Assembly: GCF_900155685.1 (NCBI RefSeq)
Contig: NZ_LT732548.1
Span: 1,880,696-1,944,695 of the forward strand
Origin: Paenibacillus bouchesdurhonensis
GTDB lineage: Bacteria; Bacillota; Bacilli; Paenibacillales; Paenibacillaceae
Reading direction: 5' to 3'
DNA: 64,000 nt
Part shown: positions 18,355-43,838 of the stretch, in pieces
How positions within the stretch are numbered: position 1 is the first letter of the stretch
How the letters are laid out: each line of letters begins with the position of its first letter
Made by a program: the position numbers and the translations under genes
Notes under the pieces: model-generated
Told to the model about the DNA's origin: nothing
Databases searched by the model: none
Seen by the model: the letters and a program-made list of their open reading frames with translations, nothing else

Positions 18355-18374
18355 TTATTCTATAGTAGATTTTA

Positions 18375-20242: not shown

Positions 20243-20276
20243 AGAACAAAGGGCGCTACTCATCCTGAGCAGCGCC
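20243..20276 (-). terminator. Terminator of the three-component operon
   Basis: On the minus strand GGCGCT pairs with AGCGCC (extended by CTC/GAG), followed by CTTTGTTCT. The stem includes the stop codon of the response regulator gene. Confidence 0.6.
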
Positions 20277-21494
20277 TCCTTTGCGATATTGCAGGGGGGA
20301 AGCTCCGGTGGTGCGTTTAAACGCTGTGCTGAAATAATGCTGGGTTTCGTAGCCGACCTGTCTGGCGATTTCGGCAATGGTTAGGTCGGTGCCGTTAAGC
20401 AACTGGGAGGCCCGGCGAATGCGGATTTGTGTCAGGTAGCTGTTGAAGGAAGTGTCCAGCTCCTGCTTGATCATCCGGCTTAAATACACTGAAGAGGTTT
20501 GAAGCTGCTGGGCCATGGACTCCAGGGTTAGCGTGCAATCGCCGTAGTGCTCCAGCAAGTACTGCTTGGCTCTACGCACCAATGGGGAAATGGCAGTTTC
20601 CTTCAGCACAGAGGATTTGCATTTGCGATAGACGGCGGGCATGGAACTGACATCGGCTTCACCTTCAGTGAGATGGATATCGACGGCCACCTTCAAGTAA
20701 GTTCGCACGGACGACTCGATTTGATGGAAGTCGGCATCGGCCGTGAGGCTCCATAGCAGCACCACAATGACACCGAACGGATCGCGAAAAATAACTTTCG
20801 GATAGGAAGTGAGCAGCTCGGCAGCAATGTTCTCGATAGCGAATAAATAGAGCTGGCGCTCACTTTCTTTCATCAATGGCTGCGGGGCAGCCGACTCACG
20901 CAGGCGAATCATGCCGAGCAGGTTGGGGGCTGTCACAGGCAATCGAAGAAAAGACAGCTGCTCCACAATTTCCTCCTCTGTCATGCTGCCTTCCATCCAT
21001 TCCTGGCAGAAGCGCTCCCGCAGCAGGGGATAGCTCTTCGTAATTTGCCGGGAAGCGGTTTGCAAATGCTGCTGCTGAATGGCCTCTTCCTCCAGTTCAT
21101 CTCTGACCTGGCGCAGTACCTTCTCCAGCTGCGCCGGATTAGCGGGCTTCAGAATATAGTCCTTTACTTGGAGGCGAATGGCCGTCTGGGCATAGCTGAA
21201 CTCGTCATGACCGGTAATAATAACGATTTTGCAGTCAGGCAGCTCCTCGCGGACATGCTTCATCAGTTCAATCCCATCCATGATCGGCATATTGAGATCG
21301 ACGAGCAGAATGTCGATCTGATGCTTAAGCGCGAGCTCCAGCGCTTCTTCTCCGTCTTCCGCCTCCGCGACGACATCCAGCCGAAGCCTCTCCCACTCAA
21401 CGCTCTCTCTAATGCCTTCCCGAATGATGAATTCATCGTCGGCAATGAGCACCTTCCAAGGATACTTTATGGAAAGAGACGGTTCATTTATCAT
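20256..21494 (-). CDS. Response regulator, REC + AraC-type HTH (AraT-like)
   Basis: 412-residue regulator with an N-terminal receiver domain (acidic pair D19/D20, phospho-acceptor D66 in LLVDLNMP, Lys in YILKP). A middle region follows, then a C-terminal AraC double HTH (about 310-405, with SSVYLSRMIKQELDTSF and IAEIARQVGYETQHYFS). The start overlaps the kinase stop by four bases. Kinase, regulator and the sugar-binding protein upstream form one minus-strand operon. The same trio, AraP-AraS-AraT, controls arabinose uptake in Geobacillus stearothermophilus, and the arabinan genes next door make the same job likely here. Ligand not proven by sequence. Confidence 0.88.
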   Translation of the reverse strand: MINEPSLSIKYPWKVLIADDEFIIREGIRESVEWERLRLDVVAEAEDGEEALELALKHQIDILLVDLNMPIMDGIELMKHVREELPDCKIVIITGHDEFSYAQTAIRLQVKDYILKPANPAQLEKVLRQVRDELEEEAIQQQHLQTASRQITKSYPLLRERFCQEWMEGSMTEEEIVEQLSFLRLPVTAPNLLGMIRLRESAAPQPLMKESERQLYLFAIENIAAELLTSYPKVIFRDPFGVIVVLLWSLTADADFHQIESSVRTYLKVAVDIHLTEGEADVSSMPAVYRKCKSSVLKETAISPLVRRAKQYLLEHYGDCTLTLESMAQQLQTSSVYLSRMIKQELDTSFNSYLTQIRIRRASQLLNGTDLTIAEIARQVGYETQHYFSTAFKRTTGASPLQYRKGGAAQDE

Positions 21495-23404
21495 TTTCGA
21501 TCAACTCCGTTTTGATTGTAATTGTCCCGGATGAGCGGATGGATTACCGTTACTGTCGTACCCTCGCCCAGTGTACTATCCAGGCTAATCCCATACTTGT
21601 CGCCAAAAGTAAGGCGAAGTCGGGCCTGTACGTTCAAGATGCCATATCCTTTCTTTTCTTCGTCCTGCCCCACGGCTCCAGCGGTTAGGTTAGCCCGATC
21701 CCCCTCGGGGGATTTGGCGGCACCAGGCTGATCTTCGGAGCTAGCCACCTGCTCCAGAGCGCGGCGAAGAGTGGCGAGCTGTTCTTCCGTCATGCCTTTG
21801 CCGTTATCGCGAATCGTCATCACTAAATCGCCGTCTTGCTCATTCGCTTTAACTTCGATGACACCCGACCCGCGGCGTTCTTTGATCCCGTGATAAATCG
21901 CATTTTCCACAATCGGCTGAAGAATCAGCTTGAGGACGCTAAGCTCCTGAACCTCCGGATCAACCATAAGCACATAATCTAATTTATTCTGATATCGGAC
22001 ATGCTGAATTTGCAAGTAGCTGCGAATATGTTCGATTTCATCGGATAATGGAATGATGACGTTGCCTTTGCTGAGTCCGATCCGGAACAGCTTTGAGAGC
22101 GACTCTGCCATTTCGGCGATATCTAGGGCACTTTTGCGGCGAGCCATCCAGTGGATCGTGTCCAGTGTATTGTACAGAAAATGCGGTTTAATATGCGCTT
22201 GAAGACTGCTTAACTCGGCCTCCCGCTTTTGTCGCTCCTGCCTTTCAGTCAAGGAAATGAGCCGATTGATCTGCAGCAGCATTTCATTGAAGCGACGGCC
22301 CAGCAGGCCAATCTCGTCCGAGCGATCGCCCCAGTAACGAATCGTTAAATCCCCGGACTGAGCCTTTTGCATGAAGGACATCAACTGTCCAATCGGCCTG
22401 GAGATCGAGTGGGCTAAGTAGAAGGATGCTGTCATCCCAAGAAGGCAAACGACAAAGACGAAGCTGACGACATAGAAGCGAATTTCCCGAATTTCTAGAA
22501 TGGAATCCTCGGTAGCGAACACGCCGACCGTCGTCCAGTCCGTAAACGGGGATACCCGGTAAATAAATTGCAGCTTCCGCCCGTCGACCTGATGGGAATA
22601 TGTGCCCGAGCCGTCCTTATTCAGCCATTCCAGCGGAATATGCTCAATGTACGGATCGGGAGGAGCATAGATGAGCTCGCCACTGCTGTCGATCACCGTG
22701 AGGTAGCCGGTTTTGCCGAGCCTGACGTCCTGCGCCGTTTCCGCAATGACTCTCAGCTTCAGATCGATTAAGACAACGCCTTTTACCTGTTGTGTATCAG
22801 GATCGAGGATTGCTCTCACCGCTGAGACCACTTCGCTGTTCTTGTAATTGACATGATTCGTGACATTGCGTTCGTTTGGATGACCGACGATTTTGAATAT
22901 CCCTTTATTGCGGACAGCTTCCTGATACCACGACTCGCGGGTCAAATCGCTGCTTGTCCGTGCGTACATTTCGTTGCTGATATATTCTCCGCCGCTGTTG
23001 ACGACCATGATGCCGGCGACTTCGGAATGAAGCGTCGTGAAGCCCTGCAAAAACTTCCGTATGTCATAATGATCGTCCTCCTGGACATTCCCTTGCACGG
23101 AGTTCAGCTCAGCTTCAGGCTCAAGAAAACGCTGGACATCGGGATTAAAGGCAATGAGGAACGTCATGTTCTGCAAATTCTCTACATACGTTTCAAGGGA
23201 ATCGTTGACCTTGCCGATAAGCTGCAGCGTGTTATTCGTAACCTGGCGATCCAGAACACGATCCACCGTCCAGTGAATGAGGAACCCAAGGCCGATGGAC
23301 GGAAGAATGCTGATGAGCAGAAAATGAACAATCAATTTATAGCGGATCGGCAAGTTATTGAACGATAATTGGCGCGCCCCGGCCGATTTAAATTTATTTC
23401 GCAT
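21491..23404 (-). CDS. YesM-type sensor histidine kinase (AraS-like)
   Basis: Membrane kinase with a first hydrophobic segment (~25-45), a large extracellular sensor region (~50-295), a second segment (~300-320) and a HAMP region. The histidine kinase domain follows, with phospho-acceptor H408 in AHIKPHFLYNTLD. The ATPase boxes are IVENAIYHGIKE, MTIRDNGKGM and LRLTFGDKYG. The C-terminal ATPase domain carries an unusual Ala/Gly/Glu-rich insert. The start is ambiguous among ATGs at 23419, 23413 and 23404; 23404 has GTGGATG upstream. It overlaps the end of the binding-protein gene. It probably reads the sugar through that protein and phosphorylates the regulator that follows. Confidence 0.88.
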   Translation of the reverse strand: MRNKFKSAGARQLSFNNLPIRYKLIVHFLLISILPSIGLGFLIHWTVDRVLDRQVTNNTLQLIGKVNDSLETYVENLQNMTFLIAFNPDVQRFLEPEAELNSVQGNVQEDDHYDIRKFLQGFTTLHSEVAGIMVVNSGGEYISNEMYARTSSDLTRESWYQEAVRNKGIFKIVGHPNERNVTNHVNYKNSEVVSAVRAILDPDTQQVKGVVLIDLKLRVIAETAQDVRLGKTGYLTVIDSSGELIYAPPDPYIEHIPLEWLNKDGSGTYSHQVDGRKLQFIYRVSPFTDWTTVGVFATEDSILEIREIRFYVVSFVFVVCLLGMTASFYLAHSISRPIGQLMSFMQKAQSGDLTIRYWGDRSDEIGLLGRRFNEMLLQINRLISLTERQERQKREAELSSLQAHIKPHFLYNTLDTIHWMARRKSALDIAEMAESLSKLFRIGLSKGNVIIPLSDEIEHIRSYLQIQHVRYQNKLDYVLMVDPEVQELSVLKLILQPIVENAIYHGIKERRGSGVIEVKANEQDGDLVMTIRDNGKGMTEEQLATLRRALEQVASSEDQPGAAKSPEGDRANLTAGAVGQDEEKKGYGILNVQARLRLTFGDKYGISLDSTLGEGTTVTVIHPLIRDNYNQNGVDRK

Positions 23405-24398
23405 AGTAATCATCCACATTATGCCGCGTTACAACGGTTATTCCGGTATCTACCTGTTCGGGAACGGGCGGGGTGCCCGGAATTTGCGCCGTGTTCAGAT
23501 CGTGTCCCAAGGAGAAGAGAAAGTGCAGCGACCAGTAGCCCATATTCCAGGTGCCCTGGGCCATCGTAGCGGAAATGTCGCCGCTCTTCACGAGATCCAG
23601 CGTGCCTTTATCGGTGTCGAAGCTAATAATTTTCGGCCGCTGACCCTCGCCAATGTTCAGCTCGCGCACCGCTTCGGCAACCCCGATGCCGCCGTTCGCT
23701 TCCGTAGCGAATATGCCGGTGATCTCCGGATAATCCCGCAAAATTTCCTCTGTCGATTGCCTCGAATAAATTTGATCCCCTTTGCCATTCTTTACAGCAA
23801 CGACTTTCATTTCCGGGTAATCCTTCTGAATCGTAGCTAGAAAACCATCGGTTCTGTCCTGGTGATTTTGCTGGTTCGGCGTAGTGACGACGGCGACTTG
23901 GCCGCGTCCGTTTGTCAGCTCCGCCATTTTTTGCGCAGCTCGAACCCCCGAGGAATAATTATTCGTGCCTAGAAACGAATAAGCTTTGCTTCCAGGGGCG
24001 TCGGAATCGAAGAGGACGACGGGAATACCAGCATCGACCGCTTTATTGATCGTTTCCGTCAAGTCGGCGGGATGAATAGCTGAAATCGCGATGCCCGCTG
24101 GTTTCTTAGCGATAATTTGCTCCAGTACCGTAATTTGCTCATGAACATCGCGCTGCGTCGAGCCGCGATATTCCACGGATACATTGAGCGCCTGTGCCGC
24201 GTCCTCAAAGCCCTTCAAGCTGCTCTTCCAATAGTCGATCCCCATTTGGAAGGTGACCATCACATATTTCTCATCTATTTCGCCGCGCAAGCCAGCGGTT
24301 CTCCACTGCTCATTCAGCTGACTTTGAGACCTATAATCCAGCACATACAGCAGAAAAAAAACGATCAGCAGCAAATATACGATCCAAATCTTCTTCAC
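23394..24398 (-). CDS. Membrane-anchored sugar-binding sensor protein (AraP-like)
   Basis: 334-residue periplasmic-binding-protein fold of the ribose/galactose type. Its N-terminus is an uncleaved-looking hydrophobic anchor (WIVYLLLIVFFLLYV) with no lipobox Cys. Family segments include GIAISAIHPADLTETINKAV, SDAPGSKAYSFLGTNNYSSG and the hinge-region DTDKGTLDLVKSGDI. No permease or ATPase gene is attached. Instead it leads the kinase/regulator operon, so it is a sensor rather than a transporter part, as in the Geobacillus AraPST system. The start is GTG after AAAGGGG. The likely ligand is L-arabinose or a related sugar, inferred from the neighbouring arabinan enzymes. Confidence 0.85.
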   Translation of the reverse strand: MKKIWIVYLLLIVFFLLYVLDYRSQSQLNEQWRTAGLRGEIDEKYVMVTFQMGIDYWKSSLKGFEDAAQALNVSVEYRGSTQRDVHEQITVLEQIIAKKPAGIAISAIHPADLTETINKAVDAGIPVVLFDSDAPGSKAYSFLGTNNYSSGVRAAQKMAELTNGRGQVAVVTTPNQQNHQDRTDGFLATIQKDYPEMKVVAVKNGKGDQIYSRQSTEEILRDYPEITGIFATEANGGIGVAEAVRELNIGEGQRPKIISFDTDKGTLDLVKSGDISATMAQGTWNMGYWSLHFLFSLGHDLNTAQIPGTPPVPEQVDTGITVVTRHNVDDYYAK

Positions 24399-24504
24399 GC
24401 TGAAACCCCTTTCAAATCACAAGCTTGGACAACATCATACTACGAAATGCCGCCGAAATATATCCCTTTCTCACAAAGAAGGCATGTTTGGTAATGCACC
24501 GCAA

Positions 24505-24556
24505 CGAGAAAAAGACTGTCTCTAGCGCAGAATTTCATCTGCGGTTAAAGACAGCC
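24505..24556 (-). terminator. Terminator of the ArsR-like gene
   Basis: On the minus strand a long stem, GGCTGTCTTTAACCGCAG against CTGCGCTAGAGACAGTC with an 8-base loop, is followed by TTTTTCTCG. Confidence 0.85.
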
Positions 24557-24604
24557 TAGGGCTGAATTGCGTCTTGCGTTGTATAGGTGACGCCGAAACT
24601 CCAT

Positions 24605-25594
24605 TTACTCCTTCGTCGCAACCTTTACCGCTTCATTCGCTTGTTTGCTCTCTCTGCTGGCTCTCGATTCTTTGTTCTCGATTTCATGAACATCGTACAG
24701 TACCCGGGCGAGCAAATCCTGACTATAGTTGCCAAAATGCTTGCCATAGATCGTTAGACCCCTCTTGTTGACTGGCTTGTCAGTAACAGCGATTCTGAAA
24801 GTCAGCTCGCTTTTGTAATCAAGCTCGATCTGATCGATCGTGACATCTGAAATGCGGCACCCGTCAATAAAGCTGCCCTCATGATTTATGCGGATCAGCT
24901 TCAGCATGCCGTACTGATTCAAGTGGGGCGGCCACCAGTCAGGGTTGAAGGTTCCCCGTGCATCGCCGAAATCGCCTGGACTCGTCCAGGAGCCGATTTC
25001 GATTCCGTTGACGTAGAAATAGATGTCGGACGGATAATTATCATTGAAGCCAGGCGCCTCCGAACTGAGCTCCATTGAGAATTGGATTTCACGGAATGTC
25101 TGATTTGGCTTCAAATAGTTAGGAATCCGATATTCTAGAAATCCGTCGGCGAGCCAAATGATTTCCGAGTCGATACGCTGTGGATCAGCGAAATAGCGAG
25201 GGTCATCAAAGTCGCCGATAATGCTGTCTTTCGTAGCTAATCCGCAGGTAGGTACCGCTTGATAATCGCTGTAGTGTCCGACCTGAATTTCGACTTCGTA
25301 TAAGTTCTCGACATCCTTACTGCGCAAGTCGACCATTAACTTGTCTTTGTTCAAGTAACAAATCTTCTGAATCCCGTGCTTGCCTACCGTCGTGTTGATT
25401 TCGATAAGACCGCTCTCCTCGAGCTTGCGGATGTGCATCGTAATAGCCCCGTTGCTTAAATTGAGCTTATTAGCCAAATCATTCAGATTCAAGGATTGAT
25501 TGTTAGCCAACAGCTCGAGAATCTGAATTCGAATTTCCGAGCCTAACGCTTTGAATATATCGATCCCACTCATTAGATCTTTAATATAGATCAT
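24605..25594 (-). CDS. ArsR-type winged-helix regulator with large C-terminal domain
   Basis: 329 residues. Residues ~10-80 form an ArsR-like winged helix (KALGSEIRIQILELLANNQS, then LANKLNLSNGAITMHIRKLE). No metal-binding Cys pattern is seen in the HTH. The remaining ~240 residues are aromatic-rich and probably beta-sandwich, with WLADGFLEYRIPNYL, YPSDIYFYVNGIEIGSW and GSFIDGCRISDV; the repeated Trp/Tyr resembles carbohydrate-binding folds. True ArsR proteins are about 100 residues, so this is a separate sugar-responsive class (inference). It faces away from the promoter module at 25837 and could control the arabinan genes. Its ATG is the first in frame, with GGAGG rather far upstream. Confidence 0.75.
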   Translation of the reverse strand: MIYIKDLMSGIDIFKALGSEIRIQILELLANNQSLNLNDLANKLNLSNGAITMHIRKLEESGLIEINTTVGKHGIQKICYLNKDKLMVDLRSKDVENLYEVEIQVGHYSDYQAVPTCGLATKDSIIGDFDDPRYFADPQRIDSEIIWLADGFLEYRIPNYLKPNQTFREIQFSMELSSEAPGFNDNYPSDIYFYVNGIEIGSWTSPGDFGDARGTFNPDWWPPHLNQYGMLKLIRINHEGSFIDGCRISDVTIDQIELDYKSELTFRIAVTDKPVNKRGLTIYGKHFGNYSQDLLARVLYDVHEIENKESRASRESKQANEAVKVATKE

Positions 25595-25836
25595 CTACCG
25601 TACCAGCCTCCGAAAAAAAGATTTCATTTCCGTTTGTTTCAAACAATTATAAACCAACAATTCTGAAAATGAAAGCAATTAATTAAATAATGTAATATTA
25701 ATGCATTATCATACATATATTACCACATTAATCCAAGACTATTTTAGATTAATGTGAAGTTACTTTGGGGTGCGGCAAGTTAAAAGCGACGAATTATGAT
25801 TATTATTTGCTAATATCAGCAACGTAGCGAAGTGAT

Positions 25837-25956
25837 TTCATATAAATATAAAAAGATTCATAAAGATATGTTTACATTGAGTTTTCTATATGCTATTTTA
25901 TAGCTGTAAACGGATTCATTGGGGAGAAATGTAACCAGTTTACAATTGAGTGAAAC
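25837..25956 (+). promoter_or_regulatory. Arabinan promoter module, copy A (promoter + cre)
   Basis: First of three gapless 120-base copies. Order: ATATAAAAAGATT box (25846-25858), -35 TTTACA (25871-25876), 17 bases, -10 TATTTT (25894-25899), cre TGTAAACGGATTCA (25905-25918, full match to TGNAANCGNWNNCA), then a TGAAAC end. With the cre over the expected start point, CcpA would block transcription on good carbon sources. In this copy it is followed only by the dead permease and the GH43 gene at 26633. Confidence 0.75.
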
Positions 25957-26039
25957 AAGGGAATGGTTCGAAGGAATGGTTCGAAAATTTATGTAGGGAA
26001 ATACGCGGTCACCAAAAATACCGGTATAGGGAACATAGA

Positions 26040-26587
26040 GGCAGCGCTTGTAATGATCCTTATCCATCGAGATCGTGGTTCCGCTATATTTTTTTGCAGT
26101 GATTGGGGCTGGATCAACACGCATTTCCTTTTTATTGTCCCGTCTTTATTCGGGCACGGGCTGAAGGGCGCGCTATTTGTGCTGATTTTTATCCAGTTTT
26201 ATAGGAGGATGCCGAGCGTGCTGGAGGAAGCGGTGAGAATCGACGGAGCTGGCGTTCCGGACGTATTGGAACATCATGTTTCCTTTGGCTAACCGTCCAT
26301 GCTGATCGTGTTTTTGTTCTCGGTCGTCTGGCATTGGAATGACAGCTTAGCCGAATACGTATTTGATGGTTCCGAGCTTCTATAATTTGACGCAGTGGAT
26401 GGCTGTATTCTACGGTACAAACAATTAGACGGCGGAGACGATGTCGCAGATGTCGTCCTCTTCCATCGGCATGGCGCCGACGGGGCTCAATCAAGTGATG
26501 GCCGCGGTCATTTTGACGATACTTCCGATTCTGATCCTGTATTTGTTCGTTCAGCGTCATTTTGTGGAGAGTGTCGAGCGTTCGTGA
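26040..26587 (+). pseudogene. Degraded CUT1 sugar ABC permease (MalG/AraQ type)
   Basis: Pieces of a permease C-terminal half are read in changing frames: GWINTHFLFIVPSLFGHGLK from 26110, the cytoplasmic EAA loop as LEEAVRIDGAG near 26222, then IVFLFSVVWHWND. After further shifts and a stop come YNLTQWMAVFYGTNN, APTGLNQVMAAVILTILPIL and the usual end LFVQRHFVESVERS at 26587. At least two frameshifts and two internal stops are present. The binding-protein gene and first permease expected upstream are gone; only their presumed promoter (copy A) remains 80 bases away. Remnant of a third transporter operon. Confidence 0.85.
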
Positions 26588-26632
26588 ATCGTTAGCGAAT
26601 AATTCATGCTACAATGAACTGGAGGGTTACCA

Positions 26633-28144
26633 TTGAAAATAAAACTAGCCATTGGATTGACAGCCATGCTGCTATTAACATCTTGCAGTGAACAGGCTTT
26701 AACCGGTTTGCCTGAAGGGGCTGCCCCAGGAACTGTTGAAGGAGGCGGAAAAATGCTGGCAGAGACGGGGGAACGGGCTGCCGAAGAAGCTCCAAAGTTT
26801 AAAAACGCATCGGTTCATGATCCGTCCGTCATTAAGGTGGAAGATACTTATTATGTCTTCGGTTCCCATTTGGCGGCCGCGAAGACGACCGATTTCATGA
26901 ATTGGACGCAGATCGCTTCGGGTGTGCACGACGGAAATCCCTTGATTCCTAATGTAACTACCGAACTGGCGGAGACGCTGGAATGGGCGCAGAGCAATAC
27001 ACTCTGGGCGCCAGACGTCATTCAACTGCCGGATGGGCGCTTCTATATGTACTATAACGCCTGCAAGGGGGATTCCCCGCTGTCGGCGATGGGCGTCGCG
27101 GTTGCAGATGATGTCGAAGGGCCGTATAAAGACTTGGGGATTATGCTCAAGTCGGGTATGTGGGGGCAGCCGAGCGAGGACGGTACAGTGTACGATGCCA
27201 CCGTTCATCCGAACGTCGTGGATCCTCACGTTTTTTTTGATAAAGAAGATAAGCTGTGGATGGTGTACGGCTCTTATTCCGGGGGCATTTATATTTTGGA
27301 GATGGATCCCGAGACCGGGTTCCCTTACCCAGATCAGGGCTACGGCAAAAAGCTGCTTGGTGCGAACCATAGCCGAATCGAGGGGCCTTATATGCTGTAT
27401 AGCCCGGAGACCGATTATTACTATATGTTCCTGTCGTACGGCGGCCTTGATGCTATTGGGGGCTACAATATTCGCGTCGTGCGCTCGAAAGCGCCGGACG
27501 GCCCGTTTGAGGATGCCGAGGGGCATGACATGACCGGTGTAGGCGGCCCGGCGGGAACGTTCTTTGACGATGAGGCGATTGCGCCCTATGGTGTGAAGCT
27601 GATGGGCAATGTGGAATTCGGTTATGTGGAAGGAGAGACGCCTGGGGTGGGGACGGCCTATGTATCTCCTGGGCATAATTCCGCGTATTATGATGAAGCG
27701 ACTGGAAAGTATTATTTGATCTTTCATACCCGGTTCCCGAACCGGGGGGAGAGCCACGAGGTGCGCGTCCATCAGATGTTCATGAACGAGGAGGGCTGGC
27801 CGGTTGTCGCGCCCCACCGCTATAGCGGGGAGACGATCGGAACGTATGATGCGGCGGAGCTCGTCGGCGATTACAAGTTCGTCCGCCACGGCAAGAACAT
27901 TACGGCGGAGGTTAAGGCATCCTCGCTCATTCATCTTGCGGCTGACGGCAAGGTCACCGGGAGCGAAACGGGCACATGGCGCTTCATCGGCGACCATCGC
28001 CTGGAATTGAGGCTGGACGGCAGCGTATTTCGCGGTGTGTTCCTGCGTCAGTGGGATGGGGGAACGCTGCAGAACGTTGTGATTTTCTCCGCGCTCTCCG
28101 AAGCCGGAGAAGCCGTCTGGGGGAGCCGCGTGGCGTTGAAGTAG
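26633..28144 (+). CDS. GH43 lipoprotein, endo-1,5-alpha-L-arabinanase type
   Basis: 503-residue lipoprotein (LLLTSC, Cys18). The five-bladed propeller catalytic domain has the three GH43 acidic residues: D63 in VHDPSV, D197 in VVDPHVFF and E250 in RIEGPYM. A long insertion and a C-terminal extra domain (from ~400, GTYDAAELVGDYKFVRHG) resemble extracellular arabinanases of the AbnA/Abn2 group. It should cut alpha-1,5-arabinan at the cell surface. TTG start after GGAGGG. It shares C-terminal blocks (HEVRVHQMFMNEEGW) with the SLH enzyme at 43839, so the two are paralogues. The pseudogene ends 45 bases upstream, so it may have been last in that lost operon. Confidence 0.9.
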   Translation: MKIKLAIGLTAMLLLTSCSEQALTGLPEGAAPGTVEGGGKMLAETGERAAEEAPKFKNASVHDPSVIKVEDTYYVFGSHLAAAKTTDFMNWTQIASGVHDGNPLIPNVTTELAETLEWAQSNTLWAPDVIQLPDGRFYMYYNACKGDSPLSAMGVAVADDVEGPYKDLGIMLKSGMWGQPSEDGTVYDATVHPNVVDPHVFFDKEDKLWMVYGSYSGGIYILEMDPETGFPYPDQGYGKKLLGANHSRIEGPYMLYSPETDYYYMFLSYGGLDAIGGYNIRVVRSKAPDGPFEDAEGHDMTGVGGPAGTFFDDEAIAPYGVKLMGNVEFGYVEGETPGVGTAYVSPGHNSAYYDEATGKYYLIFHTRFPNRGESHEVRVHQMFMNEEGWPVVAPHRYSGETIGTYDAAELVGDYKFVRHGKNITAEVKASSLIHLAADGKVTGSETGTWRFIGDHRLELRLDGSVFRGVFLRQWDGGTLQNVVIFSALSEAGEAVWGSRVALK

Positions 28145-28728
28145 CAGCGGTTCGCAGTTCGCAGCGCTGAGAGAGCAACCTTGCCAGCTTGCTTGGCATT
28201 AAAGTAGTTTGAGCGGCGTTGCAGGATAGCGGGCTGTGTGGCTTGGGGAGTAGGCTGTATGGTGTTGACACAGTAGCTGTGTGGCTTTGGAGGAGTAATC
28301 TAAATGATGTTGAAGGGCTAGCCCAGGTAGCATTGAAGTAGTAAACTGCATGGTCGATGAGGAGTAGGCTGTATGACCGTTGGGGGAATAACGATGCTTG
28401 ATCTTGTGGAGGCTTGGGTGCTTGTCGGCTCAAGAGAAGCACTTAAAGCACTCCGGTAAATAGCTCAGCTGATCGAAAGCTTTGTATGACTTAGATAGCT
28501 GCCGACCATACGGCCGACAATCCTCTTTAATATTCTATTCAATAAGCCTTTGACCAATTTGGTCAGGGGCTTATTGCTGTCACAAGGCTTATTGATCGTG
28601 CAAGTGCTTAATAGAACCTATAAAGAAAAGTTGGAGAAAAGCGCGAAATAGTATCTCCGTTGTTGAAGTCACTGGCTAATTTTAAACAGGGTTAACTCGA
28701 ATAAATAGGGCTCTCGATTCCAATTTAT
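28145..28728 (+). other. Intergenic stretch without a supported gene
   Basis: The first 300 bases contain a loosely repeated block: GGAGTAGGCTGTATG occurs at about 28247 and again at 28361. An inverted repeat, AATAAGCC at 28541-28548 and GGCTTATT at 28568-28575 with internal pairing GACCAA/TTGGTC, could be a weak terminator although no T run follows. No ORF here has a ribosome site or family features. Confidence 0.4.
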
Positions 28729-28919
28729 ACTAATTGTATTTCATACATCTAGAATGACGATTTTTACGCTGAATGTACAACTAACTGTATTGTCTGTATT
28801 TAGAATGGGAGTTTAGGAGGAGTAAGACATTTAAGGCACAATCTAGATGTGGGAAATGCAGTTAGTTTGTAAAAATGACCTTATTAACACCCAAATAGAT
28901 GCACTAAATACAGCTAGTT
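28729..28919. repeat. Head-to-head palindromic repeat element, copy 1
   Basis: Two ~51-base units lie in forward orientation (starting ACTAATTGTATTTC at 28729 and ACTAACTGTATT at 28780). Two lie in reverse (reading on the minus strand ACTAGCTGTATTTAG from 28919 and ACTAACTGCATTTCC from about 28867). Units share ACTAxxTGTATTT followed by CATCTA about five bases later. The whole can fold as an imperfect long hairpin. A second element of the same design lies at 50387-50573. Confidence 0.6.
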
Positions 28920-29020
28920 TCTGAATATGTCAGTTAGTCCGAGTTCATCTGCAACTAGAATAAAAAGTGGACAGTCCTTAAGTGAACCTAGATAATAATC
29001 CTTAAGGGAGAGATGTCCGG

Positions 29021-29335
29021 ATGGAACGTAATAGTTACAGTGAAGAGTTTAAGAAGCAGACAGTGAAGTATATTTTAGAGCAAAGTAAGTCCATGCCGCA
29101 GTTGGCCGAAGAACTCGGTATATCTGCGGGTGTGTTGCACAACTGGAAAGCACTTTACCGCGATGAAATCCAGCTGGAATCTTTAGTCACACCGGAGAGA
29201 GTGCGTCAACTCGAACAACAACTGCGTAAAAAGGAACTGGAGAATCAAGAGAAGGAGCGAGAAAATCAAGATCTCCAGGAAGAACTCGCTATATTAAAAA
29301 AGGCGCTGCACATCTTCAGCAAAGAAAGGAATTGA
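29021..29335 (+). CDS. IS3-family transposase OrfA
   Basis: 104 residues. An N-terminal helix-turn-helix (YSEEFKKQTVKYILEQ, then MPQLAEELGISAGVLHNWKA) would bind the IS ends. It is followed by a leucine-zipper-like coiled coil (about 65-95, rich in Leu, Glu and Lys). A slippery run of six A and a G lies at about 29295-29301 near the end of the frame. Slipping back one base there joins OrfA to the OrfB frame, as is normal for the family. GGGAGAGATG precedes the start region. Confidence 0.9.
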   Translation: MERNSYSEEFKKQTVKYILEQSKSMPQLAEELGISAGVLHNWKALYRDEIQLESLVTPERVRQLEQQLRKKELENQEKERENQDLQEELAILKKALHIFSKERN

Positions 29336-30204
29336 GATTCCAATTCATTGAAGAACATCGCTCCGAGTTTTCGGTGGAGAAGATGTGCAAGGTTTTACAA
29401 GTGTCTCGGAGTGGCTTCTACAAGTGGCAAAAGGCATTGCCTAGCGAGCAGAAACTTCGAAAGGCGAAGGTTCTGGAGAGAGTCAAGTATCATTTTCATG
29501 ACTCCGGGGAACGCTACGGCAGTCCTAAGATTACCCGAATGCTGTGGAAAGAGCGTATCCAGATCGCGGAGCGCACAGTTAGCATCTACATGAAAGAACT
29601 GGGGTTGCGTTCTTGTGTCTCCCGTAAATTTAAGGTGCAGACGACCGATTCCAATCATGACTCACCCATTGCTCCCAATGAGTTGAACCAGAACTTTGCC
29701 GTATCTGAACCGAACAAAGTGTGGGTGGCAGATATTACCTACATCCCCTGCCGAGAAGGACGGCTGTACTTGGCTAGTCTGATGGATCTGTGCACACGCG
29801 AGATCGTGGGTTGGCGGCTTTACGGCCGGATGACAACAGAACTTGTCTTAGATGCTCTAGAGGCCGCATATGATGCGAAAAAACCAGGTAAGGGATTGCT
29901 TCACCATTCCGATCGCGGTTCACAGTACGCATCGAAGGAGTACCGTGACAAGCTGGAATCGTATTCCATGAAGGTTAGCATGAGTCGTAAAGGGAATTGC
30001 TATGATAACGCTTGTATCGAGTCATTTCACAGCATCTTGAAAAAAGAACTCATCTACAGAACGAAGTTCAAGACCAAACAACAGGCTTACGAGACCATTT
30101 ACAGGTACATTGAATTTTTCTACAACCGCAAACGAATCCACAGTTCAATCGGCTATGTGTCGCCGGTTCAATTTGCTGCGCAATTCAAGAAGGAGACGGC
30201 GTAA
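29332..30204 (+). CDS. IS3-family transposase OrfB (DDE integrase)
   Basis: 290-residue catalytic part. HTH_21-like N-terminus (ERYGSPKITRMLWKE), then the retroviral-type integrase core. The DDE residues are the Asp of VWVADITY, the Asp of HHSDRGSQYAS and the Glu of NACIESFHS, followed by YRYIEFFYNRKRIHSSIGY. The TTG at 29332 is the first in-frame start, but the functional product is probably the OrfAB fusion made by -1 frameshifting about 35 bases earlier. Its frame is open through the slippery site and it carries no damage. Confidence 0.9.
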   Translation: MRFQFIEEHRSEFSVEKMCKVLQVSRSGFYKWQKALPSEQKLRKAKVLERVKYHFHDSGERYGSPKITRMLWKERIQIAERTVSIYMKELGLRSCVSRKFKVQTTDSNHDSPIAPNELNQNFAVSEPNKVWVADITYIPCREGRLYLASLMDLCTREIVGWRLYGRMTTELVLDALEAAYDAKKPGKGLLHHSDRGSQYASKEYRDKLESYSMKVSMSRKGNCYDNACIESFHSILKKELIYRTKFKTKQQAYETIYRYIEFFYNRKRIHSSIGYVSPVQFAAQFKKETA

Positions 30205-30268
30205 ACTTTCACTTAATAGGTGTCCACTTTCTTGACAGAAGTCCAATCCCGCCCGAAGCGGTTCAACC

Positions 30269-30372
30269 ACAAAGTAACAATCCCGCCACGAAGCTACCTT
30301 CGATTACAAAGTAACAATCCCGCCACGAAGCTACCTTCGATCACAAAGTAACAATTCCGCCACGAAGCTATG
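30269..30372. repeat. 37-bp tandem repeat, about 2.8 copies
   Basis: Units start at 30269, 30306 and 30343. Each begins ACAAAGTAACAATCCCGCC and continues ACGAAGCTACCTTCGA; the third has one C to T change and ends early. It starts 40 bases past the right end of the IS3 element. No ORF is supported across it. Confidence 0.9.
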
Positions 30373-30478
30373 TCTCGCCATCTAACTTCATTCCACACCG
30401 AGTATGGCCTACTATGTCCAACGATCGATCGTATCCAATGTCCAATCTCATAACTATATACGGCCTTATGCGAGGAAG

Positions 30479-30607
30479 TGTCAGCCACCAGCCATCCGCC
30501 ACCAATCACCAGCCATCCGCCATCCGCCACCAGTAACCAATCGCCAATCACTAATCACCAGTCACCATCCGCCAATCGCCGGCCGCTAGTCGCCAGCCGC
30601 CTGTTGG
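30479..30607. repeat. Low-complexity CCACCAGCCATCCG-type tract
   Basis: About 130 bases built from short variants of CCAGCCATCCGCC and CCAATCACCAG. The complement is G/T-rich (GGTGATTGGCGGATGG). It has strong strand bias and no coding signal. It lies between the tandem repeat and promoter copy B. Confidence 0.75.
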
Positions 30608-30748
30608 TGGTGTTGTACTGTATGATATCGGTCAATCAACCAATCGAATAATAGACAGGGGATTCTGCATGGATATTCACCACAACATCGCATCGCGCCA
30701 CCATCGCGGCTGTCCTCTCATTGCTAAAAAATACGAATATCTTAGCGT

Positions 30749-32501
<1,753 letters not shown>

Positions 32502-32670
32502 CCAAGCCCACAGATTGCCATGCAAAAACCATGCCGAAATAAAGCGTAGCCACTGGATCATGGCATAAGCAACCGTAACCGCCGGATTTAGTTGGATGTA
32601 TAAATGTATTTATGCTTGCCTAACTTCTATGATCTGCACTTAAAAACTTAATTTTTTAAGGAGGTCAGCT

Positions 32671-34002
32671 ATGAAGCAAAGATGGTTTATTGTGCTTGTC
32701 GTAATGTCAATGACGCTGATGTTATTCGGATGCGGACAATCGTCCAAGAGCGCGGGAGGAGAAACGACGGTTCTTGACGGCGGGGCAGGCGAAGGGGCAA
32801 CGGAATTGTCCTATTGGACATTCGTGGAGCTACACGGTCAACATTTTGAGAAGATGCTTGGAAAATGGAACGAGGCCAACCAGGATCGACAAATCAAGTT
32901 GAATGTGACAGTAATGCCTTATGATGACATGCATAATAAACTATCGATTGCGGTACAGACGGGGGTTGGGGCCCCGGATATCGCAGACATTGAGCTAGGC
33001 AAGTTTCCGGATTTCCTGGCAGGGACTCCCCAGTTGGAACCTTTGAATGATGTGATCGATCCGTATCGTGACACCATCGTGAAGTCCAGGATCGATCTGT
33101 ACAGCAAGGACGGCCAGAATTACGGTGTGCCTACCCATGTGGGCGCCTCGGTCGCGTTCTACAATACGGAAATTTTAGAGCAGGCCGACGTTGACTACAA
33201 GACGATCGAGACCTGGGAGGATTTCAAGCAAGCGGGCATTAAAGTGTATGAAGCGACTGGAAAATATATGGGCACCGCAGATACAAGCGCAACCTGGCAA
33301 GCCTCTATGCTGCTTGCGCAGCAAGGCAGCGATTTCACGGATGATGCCGGCAAGCCTGTCGTTAATTCAGAAGCCATGGTCAAGGGGCTGGAGATTCTAA
33401 AGGATTTGCAGGACAACAATGTCACTGCCACGATTGCTGGAGGACAGCCGGATACGGAAGAAGCCTATGGCGAATTTAATGCAGGCAACTATGCAGCCGC
33501 CTTTATGCCGTTATGGCAAATGTCGAGGTATACGAACTATATGAAGGACTTGTCCGGCAAAATCGCAATCGCACCGATTCCCGTCATTGAGAAAGGAATG
33601 CCGCGTTCTGTGGGAGGCGGAGGTACGGGAACGGTAGTGACGAAGAAGGCCAAGGATGTCCAATTGGCCAAGGATTTTCTGGCGTTCGCGAAATTGTCGC
33701 TGGACGCCAACCAGGAAATTTGGAATACACTTGGCTTCGATCCGGTCAATATGGACGTCTGGGACATGCAGGACGTCACGCATAATCCAGAGAATCAGTT
33801 CGTGCAATATTTTCAGAATAATCCCTTTGATGTCCTGAACGAAATCAAGAGCGAAATCCAGCTGATCAAGTCGACTTCCGCGACGCCAACGATCAACAAT
33901 GTTCTATGTACAATCACATTTAACGAAATATTTGAAGACGGCAGAGATATAAAGGAAGCCCTAAATGCAGCTCAAGCGCAAATTGAACAAGAATTGAAAT
34001 AG
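32671..34002 (+). CDS. Sugar ABC transporter binding lipoprotein (AraN-like)
   Basis: 443-residue CUT1 solute-binding lipoprotein (lipobox LMLFGC, Cys21) with the usual MalE-type fold. Recognisable segments are ELSYWTFVELHG, VGAPDIADIELGKFPDFL and TAIAGGQPDTEEAYGEFNAG. It should capture arabinose oligomers and hand them to the two permeases that follow. The ATG follows AAGGAGG at ideal spacing. It lies 169 bases after abfA on the same strand with no strong terminator between, so read-through from promoter copy B is possible. Substrate assigned from context only. Confidence 0.88.
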   Translation: MKQRWFIVLVVMSMTLMLFGCGQSSKSAGGETTVLDGGAGEGATELSYWTFVELHGQHFEKMLGKWNEANQDRQIKLNVTVMPYDDMHNKLSIAVQTGVGAPDIADIELGKFPDFLAGTPQLEPLNDVIDPYRDTIVKSRIDLYSKDGQNYGVPTHVGASVAFYNTEILEQADVDYKTIETWEDFKQAGIKVYEATGKYMGTADTSATWQASMLLAQQGSDFTDDAGKPVVNSEAMVKGLEILKDLQDNNVTATIAGGQPDTEEAYGEFNAGNYAAAFMPLWQMSRYTNYMKDLSGKIAIAPIPVIEKGMPRSVGGGGTGTVVTKKAKDVQLAKDFLAFAKLSLDANQEIWNTLGFDPVNMDVWDMQDVTHNPENQFVQYFQNNPFDVLNEIKSEIQLIKSTSATPTINNVLCTITFNEIFEDGRDIKEALNAAQAQIEQELK

Positions 34003-34162
34003 CAATCGCCAAAGCTATTGTAAACGTGATCGCAATTGCACTTGCACCTCATACGCAACTATGCAACGCAAGCATTCGCATTTACATTGGCTTATTCATC
34101 AATTCGTGCGGGCTGCTCTTTACAGGGGCAGCTTCCGCTCAATTTCATAAAGGAGTAGTGCG

Positions 34163-35056
34163 ATGATTAAAAAAATTCTCTACTCGCAAAAAGTCGCTCC
34201 CTACGTTTTTGTGCTGCCTTTTATCGCTGTATTCTTATTCTTTTGGGTTTATCCGCTGGCCAGCTCCTTCGGCATGAGCTTTCAGAAAATACAGCTCGGA
34301 CAAGAAGCCAGCTGGGTCGGCTTCAGCAATTACGAGAAGCTGATGGGCGACGGCGTATTTCTCAAGGCTGTAATGAACAGCGCCACATATATGGTGCTTA
34401 CCTTAGCCGTGCTAATACCTTTTCCTATGCTGTTTGCAGTACTCATCAACAATAAATTCATGTGGGGGAGAGATTTCTTCAAATCCTCCTTCTTCTTCCC
34501 CGCATTGACCTCAGTCGTCGTGGCGGGAACGATCTTCAGGCTGATGTTTGGAGAAATGGAAGGCTCTTTAATCAACAGCGTGCTAGGATGGTTCGGGATC
34601 GGCCCCGTCAAATTCCTAAAGGGGCAGGTTACCGGATTCGTCGCCCTGGTATCGCTAGCAACCTGGAGATGGACAGGGGTTAATATGCTCTATTTCCTGG
34701 CAGGCCTCAAAAATATTCCCGACGAATACTATGAAGCCGCCTCGATTGACGGAGCATCGCCCTTTCAGAAATTTACGAGGATTACGATGCCTCTATTAAA
34801 GCCTACCACAATCTATGTGCTGACGATCAGCATATATGCGGGCCTCGCGATGTTTATCGAGAGCATGATGCTGTGGAATGGCAATAACTCGCCAAAGAAC
34901 ATCGGACTGACGATCGTCGGCTATTTGTACCGGCAAGGAATCGAGAAGAACAATCTGGGGTACGCAGCGGCCGTTGGCATTGTGCTCCTGGCGATCACGA
35001 TGATCATCAACCTGACGCAGCTGGCCTTTTCTGGAATGTTCAAGAAGGAGGACTGA
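34163..35056 (+). CDS. Sugar ABC transporter permease (MalF/AraP type)
   Basis: 297-residue permease with six membrane segments and the cytoplasmic EAA loop YYEAASIDGASPFQKFTRIT, which contacts the ATPase. Pairs with the permease that starts three bases after its stop. The ribosome site is AAAGGAG. The 160-base gap to the binding-protein gene carries a small GCTGC/GCAGC hairpin. No ATPase gene is present in the operon, as in the arabinose and maltose systems of Bacillus, where the MsmX ATPase serves several importers. Confidence 0.9.
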   Translation: MIKKILYSQKVAPYVFVLPFIAVFLFFWVYPLASSFGMSFQKIQLGQEASWVGFSNYEKLMGDGVFLKAVMNSATYMVLTLAVLIPFPMLFAVLINNKFMWGRDFFKSSFFFPALTSVVVAGTIFRLMFGEMEGSLINSVLGWFGIGPVKFLKGQVTGFVALVSLATWRWTGVNMLYFLAGLKNIPDEYYEAASIDGASPFQKFTRITMPLLKPTTIYVLTISIYAGLAMFIESMMLWNGNNSPKNIGLTIVGYLYRQGIEKNNLGYAAAVGIVLLAITMIINLTQLAFSGMFKKED

Positions 35057-35059
35057 CGA

Positions 35060-35893
35060 ATGAGCAGGGATATTTCGATCAAAATCATCCTCTTCGCATT
35101 TTTTGCAGGTTTGTGTGCCTTGATTCTCATTCCTTTCTATGCGGTTACGATAGCTTCCTTCAAGCCTGGCGAGGATTTGATTCGCTACGGGCTTAACTTG
35201 AGCTTCGACCTGTCGGTCATGAATTTTGATAATTTTATATATTTATTTACCGGCAACCATGCGTATTTCACCTGGTTCTTTAACTCGCTGCTGCTGACGA
35301 TCGTTCAGGTCGTACTGACTCTACTGGTTAGCGCAACTGTGGCTTACGGGTTCTCGGCCTATGAATTCAGAGGGAAGAACCTGCTGTTTCTATGCGTGTT
35401 ATTAATTATGATGGTGCCGTTTGAAATATTGCTCCTTCCTTTATATACATTGACGAACAAAATCGGCCTTATGAACTCTTATTCGGCAATTGTGCTTCCC
35501 GGCGTGGCCAGCGCTGCGACGATCTTCTTCTTCCGGCAGTATTTAAGAGGGGTTCCCAAGGAGATCATTGCAGCAGGCAGGGTAGACGGCGCCTCGGAGT
35601 ATGGGATCTACATGAGATTGATCTTGCCTGTCATGAAACCGTCCTTTGCTGCTATGGCGATCTTAAATGGCATGAATAGCTGGAACAATTTCCTTTGGCC
35701 GTTTATGGTGCTCAGCGATGCTGGGAAGTACACGCTTCCGATTGGCCTTAAGACGCTGTTAACGCCTTATGGGAATAATTACGATTTATTAATCGTCGGC
35801 TCGTTTTTCTCGATTATTCCTATTTTCATTTTGTTTGTAGCTTTTCAAAAGTATTTTATTGATGGAATGACGGCTGGAGCGGTGAAGGGCTAA
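35060..35893 (+). CDS. Sugar ABC transporter permease (MalG/AraQ type)
   Basis: 277-residue second permease with six membrane helices and the EAA loop IIAAGRVDGASEYGIYMRLI. It ends in the typical FQKYFIDGMTAGAVKG. AAGGAGGACTGACGA before the ATG lies inside the end of the upstream gene, so the two permeases are co-translated. A terminator follows at 35939. The same fold is seen broken in the pseudogene at 26040. Confidence 0.9.
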   Translation: MSRDISIKIILFAFFAGLCALILIPFYAVTIASFKPGEDLIRYGLNLSFDLSVMNFDNFIYLFTGNHAYFTWFFNSLLLTIVQVVLTLLVSATVAYGFSAYEFRGKNLLFLCVLLIMMVPFEILLLPLYTLTNKIGLMNSYSAIVLPGVASAATIFFFRQYLRGVPKEIIAAGRVDGASEYGIYMRLILPVMKPSFAAMAILNGMNSWNNFLWPFMVLSDAGKYTLPIGLKTLLTPYGNNYDLLIVGSFFSIIPIFILFVAFQKYFIDGMTAGAVKG

Positions 35894-35938
35894 TTATAAA
35901 ATAAAATAAAAGAATGGCTGATCTCCTGATTTTTTCAC

Positions 35939-35960
35939 AGCACCGATAGGTGCTTTTTCT
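35939..35960 (+). terminator. Terminator of the first transporter operon
   Basis: AGCACC and GGTGCT with a GATA loop, followed by TTTTCTTC. Confidence 0.8.
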
Positions 35961-36102
35961 TCATATTCCCTAAATTCAATATCCAAATTCCTTTTTTTTG
36001 TTTTACATAAGCATAAATAATTGATGTAAACAACGAATAAGAGCTATCAATTGCTATAGAAAAACCGCCTGCAGAATAAAAAAGGATAGTAAAATAATTC
36101 TA

Positions 36103-36310
36103 TGTATTATATATTTATATAAAACTAATAACGAAATAACGGGGGTGAATCGATGGTTATAGGCTATTTATAGCCCGAAAAGGAATTAATTTTATAAAAC
36201 TATAAAAAGATTTAGATTTTATTGTTTACATTCGTTCTCCTATATGTTATTTTATATTTGCAAGCGGATTCATTCAAGTCTTACAAAACCATTTTAAGTT
36301 TAATTAAAAC
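36103..36310 (+). promoter_or_regulatory. Arabinan promoter module, copy C (promoter + cre)
   Basis: Upstream AT block (TATTATATATTTATATAAAA, from about 36105), then the gapless 120-base core (36191-36310) with CTATAAAAAGATTTAG, -35 TTTACA (36225-36230), 17 bases, -10 TATTTT (36248-36253), cre TGCAAGCGGATTCA (36259-36272) and a TTAATTAAAAC end. It drives the transporter operon that begins at 36372. Copies B and C are more alike than either is to A. Confidence 0.8.
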
Positions 36311-36371
36311 TGGCAGCGGATTAACATTTATATTTCATATAGTGTTAAATCAATATTCATTAGGAGGGTTT

Positions 36372-37754
36372 ATGGTGGTCAAGAAAAAAAGTTGGTTTAT
36401 GCTAGTTTCGCTCATTTTCATCCTCTCTACCGTGTTAGCGGCCTGTGGAGGCAAAGAGAACAGTGAAGCAGGAAGCAGCAACGGGGGTTCCGGGAAAGCC
36501 ACTGAGACGAAAGAACTGACATTTATGTACCGTGGGGGTACCGACGAGCAGAAAGCGTATACAGAAGTCGTCAAGAAATTTGAAGAGGATCATCCTGGCG
36601 TCAAAGTAAAAATGGTCGTTACAGCAGCAGACCAATATGCCACGAAGCTGAAAGCAGCGATCACGGGTAATAAGGTGCCTGACGTGTTCTATTTTGAATC
36701 GGGCGACTTGAAAGCTTACGTGAATAGCGGCATTCTTAGGAACCTCACGCCTTATCTGAACTATAGCGAAGACATTAATCTCGATAACATTTGGAAATAC
36801 GGTGTGGACTTATACCGCTACGATGGAGAAATGGCTGGACAAGGCGATATTTATGGCATGCCGAAGGACGTTGGTCCATTCGCTTTAGGATATAACAAGA
36901 CGATGTTTGAAAAAGAAGGAATTCCTTTCCCGGACAATGACGTTCCGATGACTTGGGATGAGTTCATCGAAGTCAATAAGAAGCTGACGAAGGATACTAA
37001 TGGGGATGGAAAGATTGATCAATATGGGACAGGCTTTAACGTGAACTGGGTATTGCAGTCTTTAGTCTGGAGTAACGATGCGGACTGGATCGATGAGACC
37101 AAAACCACAGTAACGATCGATGATCCGAAATTTGCGGAAGCGCTGCAGTTCTTCGCTGACATGCAAAATGTTCATAAAATTACGCCTTCCGCTGAAGATG
37201 CGCAAACATTGGATACCTACCAACGCTGGATGAAAGGTGAGCTTGCTTTCTTCCCGGTAGGACCTTGGGATATGAGTACTTATGAAGGACTTCCGTTTGA
37301 ATATGATCTAATGCCTTACCCTGCGGGTTCGACAGGCAAATCGGCCACTTGGATCGGATCGCTTGGAATCGGGGTTTCGGAGAAAACGAAGTATCCAGAA
37401 GAGGCAGTTGCACTAGTTAACTATTTGACGGCGTCGAAAGAAGGCATGGAAATGCTGGTCAACGCCAAGGTGCAAATTCCGAACCTGATTGATATGGCTG
37501 AGGAGTGGGCTGCGGATACTTCGACTAAACCGGCAAACAAACAGGAGTTCCTCGATATCGTTGGAGATTATGGCCGAGTGCTGCCGGGTCACTACACTTA
37601 TAATGCCGAATGGTACAACTTGTTCTTTACAGATATTCAACCTGTGATTGACGGTAAAATGACGGCTGAGGAATATGTGAAGCAGCAGCAGCCGAAGATG
37701 CAGAAGCTTCTGGATAAAGCGATTGAACAGGAGCAAAAATCGAAGAATAAATAA
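36372..37754 (+). CDS. Sugar ABC transporter binding lipoprotein, second system
   Basis: 460-residue CUT1 binding lipoprotein (lipobox VLAAC, Cys25). The mature part begins with a Ser/Gly/Asn linker, then [20 protein letters not shown] and the family hinge and loop [28 protein letters not shown] is a Ca-loop-like segment common in such proteins. ATG at 36372 after TAGGAGGG; an upstream in-frame start at 36222 lies in the promoter. It shows little similarity to the first binding protein, so it probably takes a different oligosaccharide. A hairpin follows the gene, which would give this subunit more transcript than the permeases. Confidence 0.88.
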
Positions 37755-43680: not shown

Positions 43681-43740
43681 GAGAACCGGCAGCGAGAGAG
43701 AGCACTATCATCATCTGACACGCTGTCGGTTCTCCTGTTT
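43681..43740 (+). terminator. Terminator of the transporter-GH43-GH51 operon
   Basis: GAGAACCGGCAGCG (43681-43694) pairs with CGCTGTCGGTTCTC (43721-43734) with one mismatch, followed by CTGTTTTG. Confidence 0.8.
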
Positions 43741-43838
43741 TGTCTGCTATGCCCGTTATTGCGGTTGTGTTTACGGTATTATCGATATCGTTCATGCATG
43801 CAACATGCTTAAATCATTTTAATGAGGGGGAAATCTAC

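Follow-up and report, generated by a model that had tools for sequence, protein, structure and literature searches.

Which regulator governs the arabinan genes on this 64,000-nucleotide stretch of Paenibacillus bouchesdurhonensis DNA (contig NZ_LT732548.1; the whole stretch is called the window here)? The question arises from three copies of one promoter module, each carrying an A-rich box ahead of its -35 element. An earlier note had tentatively assigned this box to a YesN/AraC-type response regulator encoded at 20256. Our analysis points to a different protein. The box is an inverted repeat, follows an adjacent ArsR-like gene across genera and varies with the recognition helix of that protein family. 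Most likely, the module is run by this neighbouring ArsR-type repressor rather than by a two-component regulator.

Three copies of a promoter module

Just as the earlier note had described, the copies (25832-25956, 30833-30957 and 36186-36310) form a gapless alignment. It spans 125 columns, of which 79 are invariant. The order and spacing of elements that it gave also hold: TATAAAAAGATT, TTTACA, 17 bases, TATTTT and a perfect TGNAANCGNWWNCA catabolite-responsive element (cre) stand at identical columns in all three. The shared block is real, but its proposed 120-bp extent is too short, as a 37-nt stretch (D9) recurs about 80 bp upstream of both copy 2 and copy 3, its occurrences being 5353 bp apart, the same as those copies. 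Unsupervised repeat finding returned the same three-copy family at 127 nt, with 69% and 83% identity to the middle copy.

The core of each copy is TTTACA-N17-TATTTT with TGC or TGT ahead of the -10, as in an extended -10. The cre claimed for each copy is perfect in all three, and its pattern matches five times in the window against 0.8 expected. It sits at the predicted start point, in keeping with membership of the CcpA regulon.

25871..25899, plus strand: promoter core of copy 1, TTTACA-N17-TATTTT, with TGC before the -10
25905..25918, plus strand: cre of copy 1, at the predicted transcription start
30906..30919, plus strand: cre of copy 2
36259..36272, plus strand: cre of copy 3

The genome-wide check of the box that the earlier note proposed came out in its favor. 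The pattern TATAAAAAGATT-N8-18-TTTACA occurs at three places in the 5,822,871-base genome, and the reversed control at none. A 125-position model of the module, R1, scores strongly only at the three window copies genome-wide, the next match having E=0.26.

The module travels with an ArsR-like gene

Strong R1 matches (E<=2.4e-9) occur in 29 of 36 genomes of the genus, including the window's own. Five weak matches (17-23 bits: L120, L127, L129, L130, L131) were dropped ahead of all counts. The 47 strong copies comprise 38 from the genus search and nine from stretches around the ArsR-like gene in four further genomes; G059-G062, covered only in such stretches, were left out of the co-occurrence count. 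Net of insertions and deletions, 40 of the 47 have the length of the model and seven lack one base. In 21 of the 29 module-bearing genomes, arfA (glycoside hydrolase family GH51, an arabinofuranosidase gene) and the ArsR-like gene diverge from each other with the module and its conserved sites between them. In the remaining genomes, the copy beside the ArsR-like gene points toward abnB, a sugar-binding protein gene or remnants. The window itself has a 109-aa open reading frame (ORF) and abnB as divergent neighbors, and its arfA has copy 2. Outside the genus, R1 finds matches at E<=0.01 in 12 of 40 loci, which were chosen for having the regulator. We conclude that the module belongs to a conserved control region of plant-arabinan-degrading bacteria.

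Two regulator genes lie near copy 1:

24605..25594, minus strand: ArsR-like one-component regulator (ArbA-like), the proposed owner of the operators, with an N-terminal winged helix and a C-terminal domain of about 220 residues
20256..21494, minus strand: YesN/AraC-type response regulator (Response_reg and HTH_18), judged not to own the module

An ortholog of the ArsR-like protein (at least 82% identity) is present in 28 of the 29 module-bearing genomes and in none of the other seven; of these, four have only paralogs of 45-46% identity, and in three nothing matches at E<=1e-20. In G026, the one exception, the module occupies bases 43-152 of a contig, whose end cuts off the regulator side. The protein matches HTH_5 and HTH_24 at residues 20-65, and its HTH_5 score of 40.3 bits (cut-off 22) identifies an ArsR-type winged helix, although the NCBIfam ArsR/SmtB model reaches 47.4 bits, below its cut-off of 55. 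Its last 220 or so residues, likely a sensor, have no significant Pfam, NCBIfam or PDB sequence match among the matches listed, the same matches including DUF7596 below threshold (E 0.04). A single-sequence structure model was unusable, with a mean predicted local distance difference test score (pLDDT) of 35.5, and viral contigs held no homologs of the protein.

The co-occurrence needs to be read with care. Related genomes are not independent of one another, and because most module copies adjoin the ArsR-like gene, part of the link is synteny. For this reason, further tests were made (see below).

The response regulator could also own the box, as the activator of an AraPST-like three-component system. 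Geobacillus stearothermophilus T-6 reportedly has an AraPST system and an arabinan cluster, and positions 20256-24398 of the window likewise hold genes for a sugar-binding protein, a histidine kinase and a response regulator. The response regulator gene is 5 kb from copy 1, and orthologs of at least 69% identity occur in 18 of the 29 module-bearing and none of the seven module-less genomes. At E<=1e-60, however, it fails to track the module: it has matches in 22 of the 29, leaving seven without, and in four of the module-less seven, there at 50-56% identity. Nor does R1 find anything within up to 10 kb on each side of the closest 25 of 80 relatives of the response regulator, and an ArsR-like gene (tblastn E<=1e-10) is absent from the same distance around all 80. 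The AraPST-like set of the window does not follow the module, apart from the partial link at 69% identity or more. In part of the genus, the response regulator may still be linked to the module.

A palindrome at four places

The symmetry of the box bears on the same question. The TATAAAAAGATT box did not hold up as a unit, since it consists of a palindrome's right half and a conserved flank. The core of the palindrome is TTYATA-N4-YATRAA. Across the 18-mer in 38 copies, columns T2, T3, A5, T14, A16, A17 and A18 never vary. Mirror positions are complementary in all 38 copies at three pairs, and in 23, 21, 25, 19, 11 and 5 copies at the other six.

We built a symmetric matrix from this site alone (O3) and ran it over 29 regulator-adjacent intergenic regions. 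Besides O3, it marks a site near the regulator gene (O1), one between (O2) and another within the leader (O4). Only four peaks are high in the consensus of these regions: O3 (12.9, position 254), O2 (12.9, position 160), O1 (11.1, position 55) and O4 (10.4, position 356). The next peak scores 3.8. Among 1000 shuffles of that consensus, the scores of ranks 1 to 4 were reached by 14, 1, 0 and 0, with the rank 1 score tied with the training site O3. Consensus spacings are 105, 94 and 102 bp, which places two sites around each of the divergent promoters. With the start predicted at column 76, O3 is centered at about -62, the cre covers about -2 to +12 and O4 is centered at about +40.

The sites in the window, with matrix scores and without strand, are as follows:

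25638..25653: O1 of copy 1, proximal to the ArsR-like gene, TTCAAACAATTATAAA; score 10.5; a conserved island in the 29 intergenic regions
25743..25758: O2 of copy 1, TTTAGATTAATGTGAA; score 9.8; 105 bp from O1
25837..25852: O3 of copy 1, TTCATATAAATATAAA, holding part of the A-rich box; score 13.0; training site
25939..25954: O4 of copy 1, in the leader, TTTACAATTGAGTGAA; weak, 7.0
30755..30770: O2 of copy 2, degenerate, TATATATTTATATAAA; 7.3; 83 bp from O3
30838..30853: O3 of copy 2; score 13.0
30940..30955: O4 of copy 2, in the leader, TTTATGTTTAATTGAA; 7.8
36002..36017: O1 of copy 3, TTTACATAAGCATAAA; score 11.8; at -189 from O3
36108..36123: O2 of copy 3, degenerate; 7.3
36191..36206: O3 of copy 3; score 12.9
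36293..36308: O4 of copy 3, in the leader; weak, 5.2

The spacing recurs in individual regions. Both O1 and O2 are among the three best peaks, with scores >4, in 23 of the 29 regions, and they lie 104-106 bp apart in 20 of these. Five of the remaining regions have no clear O2, and in L095, where the same 16-mer occurs twice, the distance is 105 bp. The best site between +60 and +114 from O3 falls at 101-102 in 40 of the 47 copies, at 82 in six and at 96 in one. For O2-O3, distances come from 35 of the 47 copies, since an O1-O2 spacing of 104-106 bp was required beforehand and 12 copies dropped out; they are 72, 83-85 or 93-97 bp, and these classes carry no significance test. These values are about one helical turn apart, and no promoter is known between O2 and O3. 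What the analysis shows are the sites, their spacing, their conservation and their link to the ArsR-like gene.

To the right of O3, the flank AAGATTTA (25853-25860 in the window, and the equivalent positions) is one-sided, 91% conserved and, by eye, missing from O1, O2 and O4. An UP element is one possible explanation, binding by a second activator another. Lying just upstream of the -35, it speaks for an activator such as the response regulator. O3 itself is an inverted repeat, unlike the tandem repeats given for AraC-family sites in Caldicellulosiruptor bescii in an excerpt of PMC8579813. From distribution and symmetry together, we judged an AraC-type box unlikely, and control by the AraPST-like system very unlikely.

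Another possibility is that the ArsR-like protein owns the sites but activates from O3, with O4 a minor site. A center at about -62 is a usual position of a class I activator. O3 lies upstream of the -35, a region that activators bind too, and outscores every other site in 31 of the 47 copies. Against activation, the -10 of the regulator's likely promoter is closely followed by O1 in 14 of the 29 regions, and the 95-97% conservation of the -35 and extended -10 suggests little need for it. ArsR-family proteins mostly repress, as PMC8579813 also states. We consider activation from O3 quite unlikely.

The conserved leader allows a third explanation. The earlier note was right about its conservation and called it an untranslated leader; a fourth operator, O4, explains it. 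An RNA element or translation signal might do so instead. The leader stops at the ribosome-binding site, and when the leader consensus is shuffled by itself, 80 of 2000 shuffles reach the O4 score. The main grounds for O4 are therefore where it lies and the test on the whole region. Over offsets from -100 to +124 in the 47 copies, the O3 matrix has its highest mean besides O3 itself at +102 (4.2; next -2.1). Rfam, at gathering score, finds no family in 24400-37000. An RNA or translation signal in place of O4 seems unlikely to us.

Like the points just raised on O3 and on the leader score, several irregularities weigh against the four-operator repressor reading proposed below. The other three of the 23 regions have O1-O2 distances of 100, 100 and 115 bp, O1-O3 is 131 bp in L106, and L123_10337, outside the 35-copy set, has O2-O3 at 77 bp. 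The O3-O4 distance of 102 bp is a non-integral number of 10.5-bp turns, and O4 is weak in all three window copies. In L106 and L116-L119, O2 is absent or weak, and the O2 sites of copies 2 and 3 are degenerate. Three copies beside a regulator gene (L121_13028, L124_8228 and L186_13969) have a degraded O3, in species that have other copies too, and O3 is the top-scoring site in no more than 31 of the 47 copies. Finally, R1 has no strong match in 23 genomes of other families of the order, and 10 of the 40 out-of-genus regions considered next contain no site at p<=0.05.

Operators and recognition helices vary together

These 40 intergenic regions lie beside out-of-genus orthologs of the regulator (64-90% identity, picked among the matches listed to span that range) and played no part in building the matrix. 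In 30 of them a site reaches shuffle p<=0.05, against two expected. In one, G209, sites lie 104, 84 and 102 bp apart, with an overlapping extra match. Spacing varies outside the genus, and we claim no helical phasing there.

We also examined 21 places with paralogs of the regulator (34-49% identity). A TTnAnA-N4-TnTnAA site lies upstream of 10 of the 14 paralogs with a TMH[VI]RKL recognition helix and of none of the seven with other helices (Fisher p=0.004, uncorrected for kinship). The paralog loci hold 14 sites, some inside a neighboring gene, against 0.75 expected, a number that none of 200 shuffles reached. Many of these sites have TTAATA half-sites in place of TTYATA, and in L166 and L172 a pair lies 107-108 bp apart. 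Among 16 further homologs, a site is present in both with a TMH helix, in the one with SMH (inside a gene) and in none of the 13 with other helices. One of these TMH homologs with a site, L253 from a Ruminiclostridium papyrosolvens genome, has a divergent GH51 gene.

Separately, in L166 a GH51 gene is preceded by two operator-like sites, 131-166 nt upstream of the regulator gene and 20 bp from each other, as if two dimers were to bind side by side.

A proposed mechanism

Taking these lines together, we think it probable, on sequence grounds, that an ArbA-like repressor of the ArsR family acts through four operators, probably by looping the DNA, together with CcpA. The module would form half of a divergent control region that belongs to the ArsR-like regulator (24605-25594, minus strand), whose dimers would bind TTYATA-N4-YATRAA at four places. 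O1 and O2 would flank the regulator's own promoter, and O3 (about -62) and O4 (about +40) the promoter of the arabinan genes. Without inducer, both promoters would be blocked, probably by loops of about 100 bp; an arabino-sugar on the C-terminal domain would release the regulator, and glucose repression would come on top through CcpA bound to the cre at the predicted start. Binding by the ArsR-like protein, repression, looping and the inducer are what we infer from the arrangement.

A search for the regulator's promoter by distance from O2 was without success. Anchored on O1, it gave one position in 14 of the 29 regions, where the best-scoring promoter that faces the regulator gene has exactly 15 nt between the end of its -10 and O1. 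With O1 past this -10 and O4 in the leader, sites lie inside both transcripts, which fits a repressor. Paired sites around each promoter would fit looping, by analogy with AraR of Bacillus subtilis.

We also offer a broader idea, though only tentatively. A carbohydrate-sensing branch of the ArsR family, with a sensor domain of about 220 residues, may govern divergent genes through a multi-loop complex (105-94-102 bp) that joins four operators lying on one helical face. Bacteria would recruit new operons by copying the whole control region, and paralogs would keep the same layout with other half-site letters.

Old duplicates kept by selection

Copy 3 has all four sites (36002, 36108, 36191 and 36293) and copy 2 has O2 to O4, both without a regulator gene. 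Both derive from old duplication, in part or in whole, of the divergent control region. Over the 40 indel-free copies, O3 is 84% conserved, the -35 97%, the extended -10 95%, the cre 94% and O4 75%, whereas spacers are 57-65% conserved. The claim of a regulon module with a cre under selection is therefore supported.

The earlier note had left open duplication or selection; both apply, but not recent duplication alone. Copies 2 and 3 are 83% identical and have upstream sequence in common, as a recent event would predict. Yet among the 40 indel-free copies the nearest relative of each window copy (1 to 3) is a copy in another species, at 0.82, 0.86 and 0.91, the margin being small for copy 2 (0.86, against 0.83 to copy 3). 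Copies at the same genes are also present in other species; the duplications thus precede the split from the nearest species, and the sites have been kept since. The spacers have diverged and the elements have not, and distant species hold single copies. Recent duplication as the sole explanation is so improbable that we reject it, the same-gene copies in other species already contradicting it. We propose instead that the region was copied, partly or whole, in an ancestor of the window's species group, which would have put arfA and a transporter operon under the same control.

A phage origin of copy 1 was considered and rejected: positions 25700-26700 had no match in a phage collection.

Genes and other features of the window

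The genes behind the three copies are the following:

25963..26292, plus strand: 109-aa ORF between copy 1 and abnB; by eye a permease-gene fragment; no Pfam families
26633..28144, plus strand: abnB, GH43 endo-arabinanase, downstream of copy 1; NCBIfam NF053746 above cut-off
30972..32501, plus strand: arfA, GH51 arabinofuranosidase, behind copy 2; NCBIfam NF051901 above cut-off
36372..37754, plus strand: sugar-binding protein gene behind copy 3; SBP_bac_1; listed ORF from 36222

For arfA, a recurring GGAAGGTG ribosome site suggests a TTG start at 30972 as the likely one (the listed ORF begins at 30951). By gene order, 36372..37754 is the first gene of an ABC transporter and glycosidase cluster. 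In G001 and G004, abnB starts 107 and 89 nt after the module. In G060, it lies 1352 nt after, with a match to the 25963-26292 ORF between (L184). Behind a module copy at 6397 in L123 (G011), only the last 74 or so codons of arfA are matched.

An extra operator-like site (10.4) at 26603-26618, about 15 nt before the abnB start, may be due to chance. Outside the modules, the window has five operator-like sites against 1.65 expected, with a maximum of four in 20 shuffles. Upstream of copy 2, near the expected place of O1, 30262-30599 holds three 37-nt tandem repeats and a run of 14-nt repeats. A transposase gene pair (HTH_Tnp_1 and rve by Pfam), which we take to be of the IS3 type, lies between abnB and arfA at 29021-30204. 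Farther away, 12342-18400 holds cas genes (Csd1, Cas7, Cas4, Cas1 and Cas2 by Pfam), presumably of type I-C, followed by a repeat array seen as repetitive ORFs. A 1518-residue protein encoded at 43740-48296 has three S-layer homology domains, a GH43 domain and laminin-G-like domains (Pfam).

Relation to known systems

The closest described system is that of C. bescii, whose ArbA is reported as the first ArsR-family regulator of carbohydrate use (PMC8579813, in excerpt). The same excerpt gives three predicted sites in the intergenic region that ArbA (also printed ArbR) shares with the divergent abfA, along with an AraR site, and reads ArbR sites in 5' untranslated regions or over promoters as repressor sites. 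Our system resembles this in having an ArsR-family regulator divergent from an arabinofuranosidase gene with shared intergenic sites. It differs in having four sites, a cre and a control region duplicated to three operons. AraR-like TGTACGTACA-type boxes were not seen in the region consensus, which was read by eye without a separate search. Two homologs of the regulator (49-50% identity), L261 and L263, have GC contents of 0.36 and 0.35, a divergent GH51 gene and, by eye, an AraR-like palindrome; they are probably the Caldicellulosiruptor ArbA-abfA system. These two and L264 have the recognition helix GAVTQHMKKL and no TTnAnA-N4-TnTnAA site.

AraR of B. subtilis, of the GntR family, represses arabinose and arabinan genes through in-phase palindrome pairs and a small DNA loop, and has an ara box at its own gene as well (PMC4218819, in excerpt). 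The ArsR-like regulator belongs to another protein family, and the AraR operator given there is At(T/A)tGTaCGTAcaa(A/T)T. In Geobacillus 56T3, an ArsR-family gene heads a cluster of arabinan ABC-transporter and GH genes, by annotation only. This cluster, like ours, sets an ArsR-family gene beside arabinan genes; its operators are not described in the excerpt of PMC4428132. Our literature search, with most subscription journals outside its reach, found no description of this control region and a predicted regulon of such a kind only as ArbA of Caldicellulosiruptor.

Homologs of the ArsR-like regulator (E<=1e-90, paralogs included) occur in 145 of 246 sampled genomes of the order. The palindrome is thus a candidate operator code for widespread ArsR-type sugar regulators on which we found little in print. 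The analysis also revises the regulator assigned to this arabinan locus, and lets a control region be seen in reuse, bringing new operons into a regulon.

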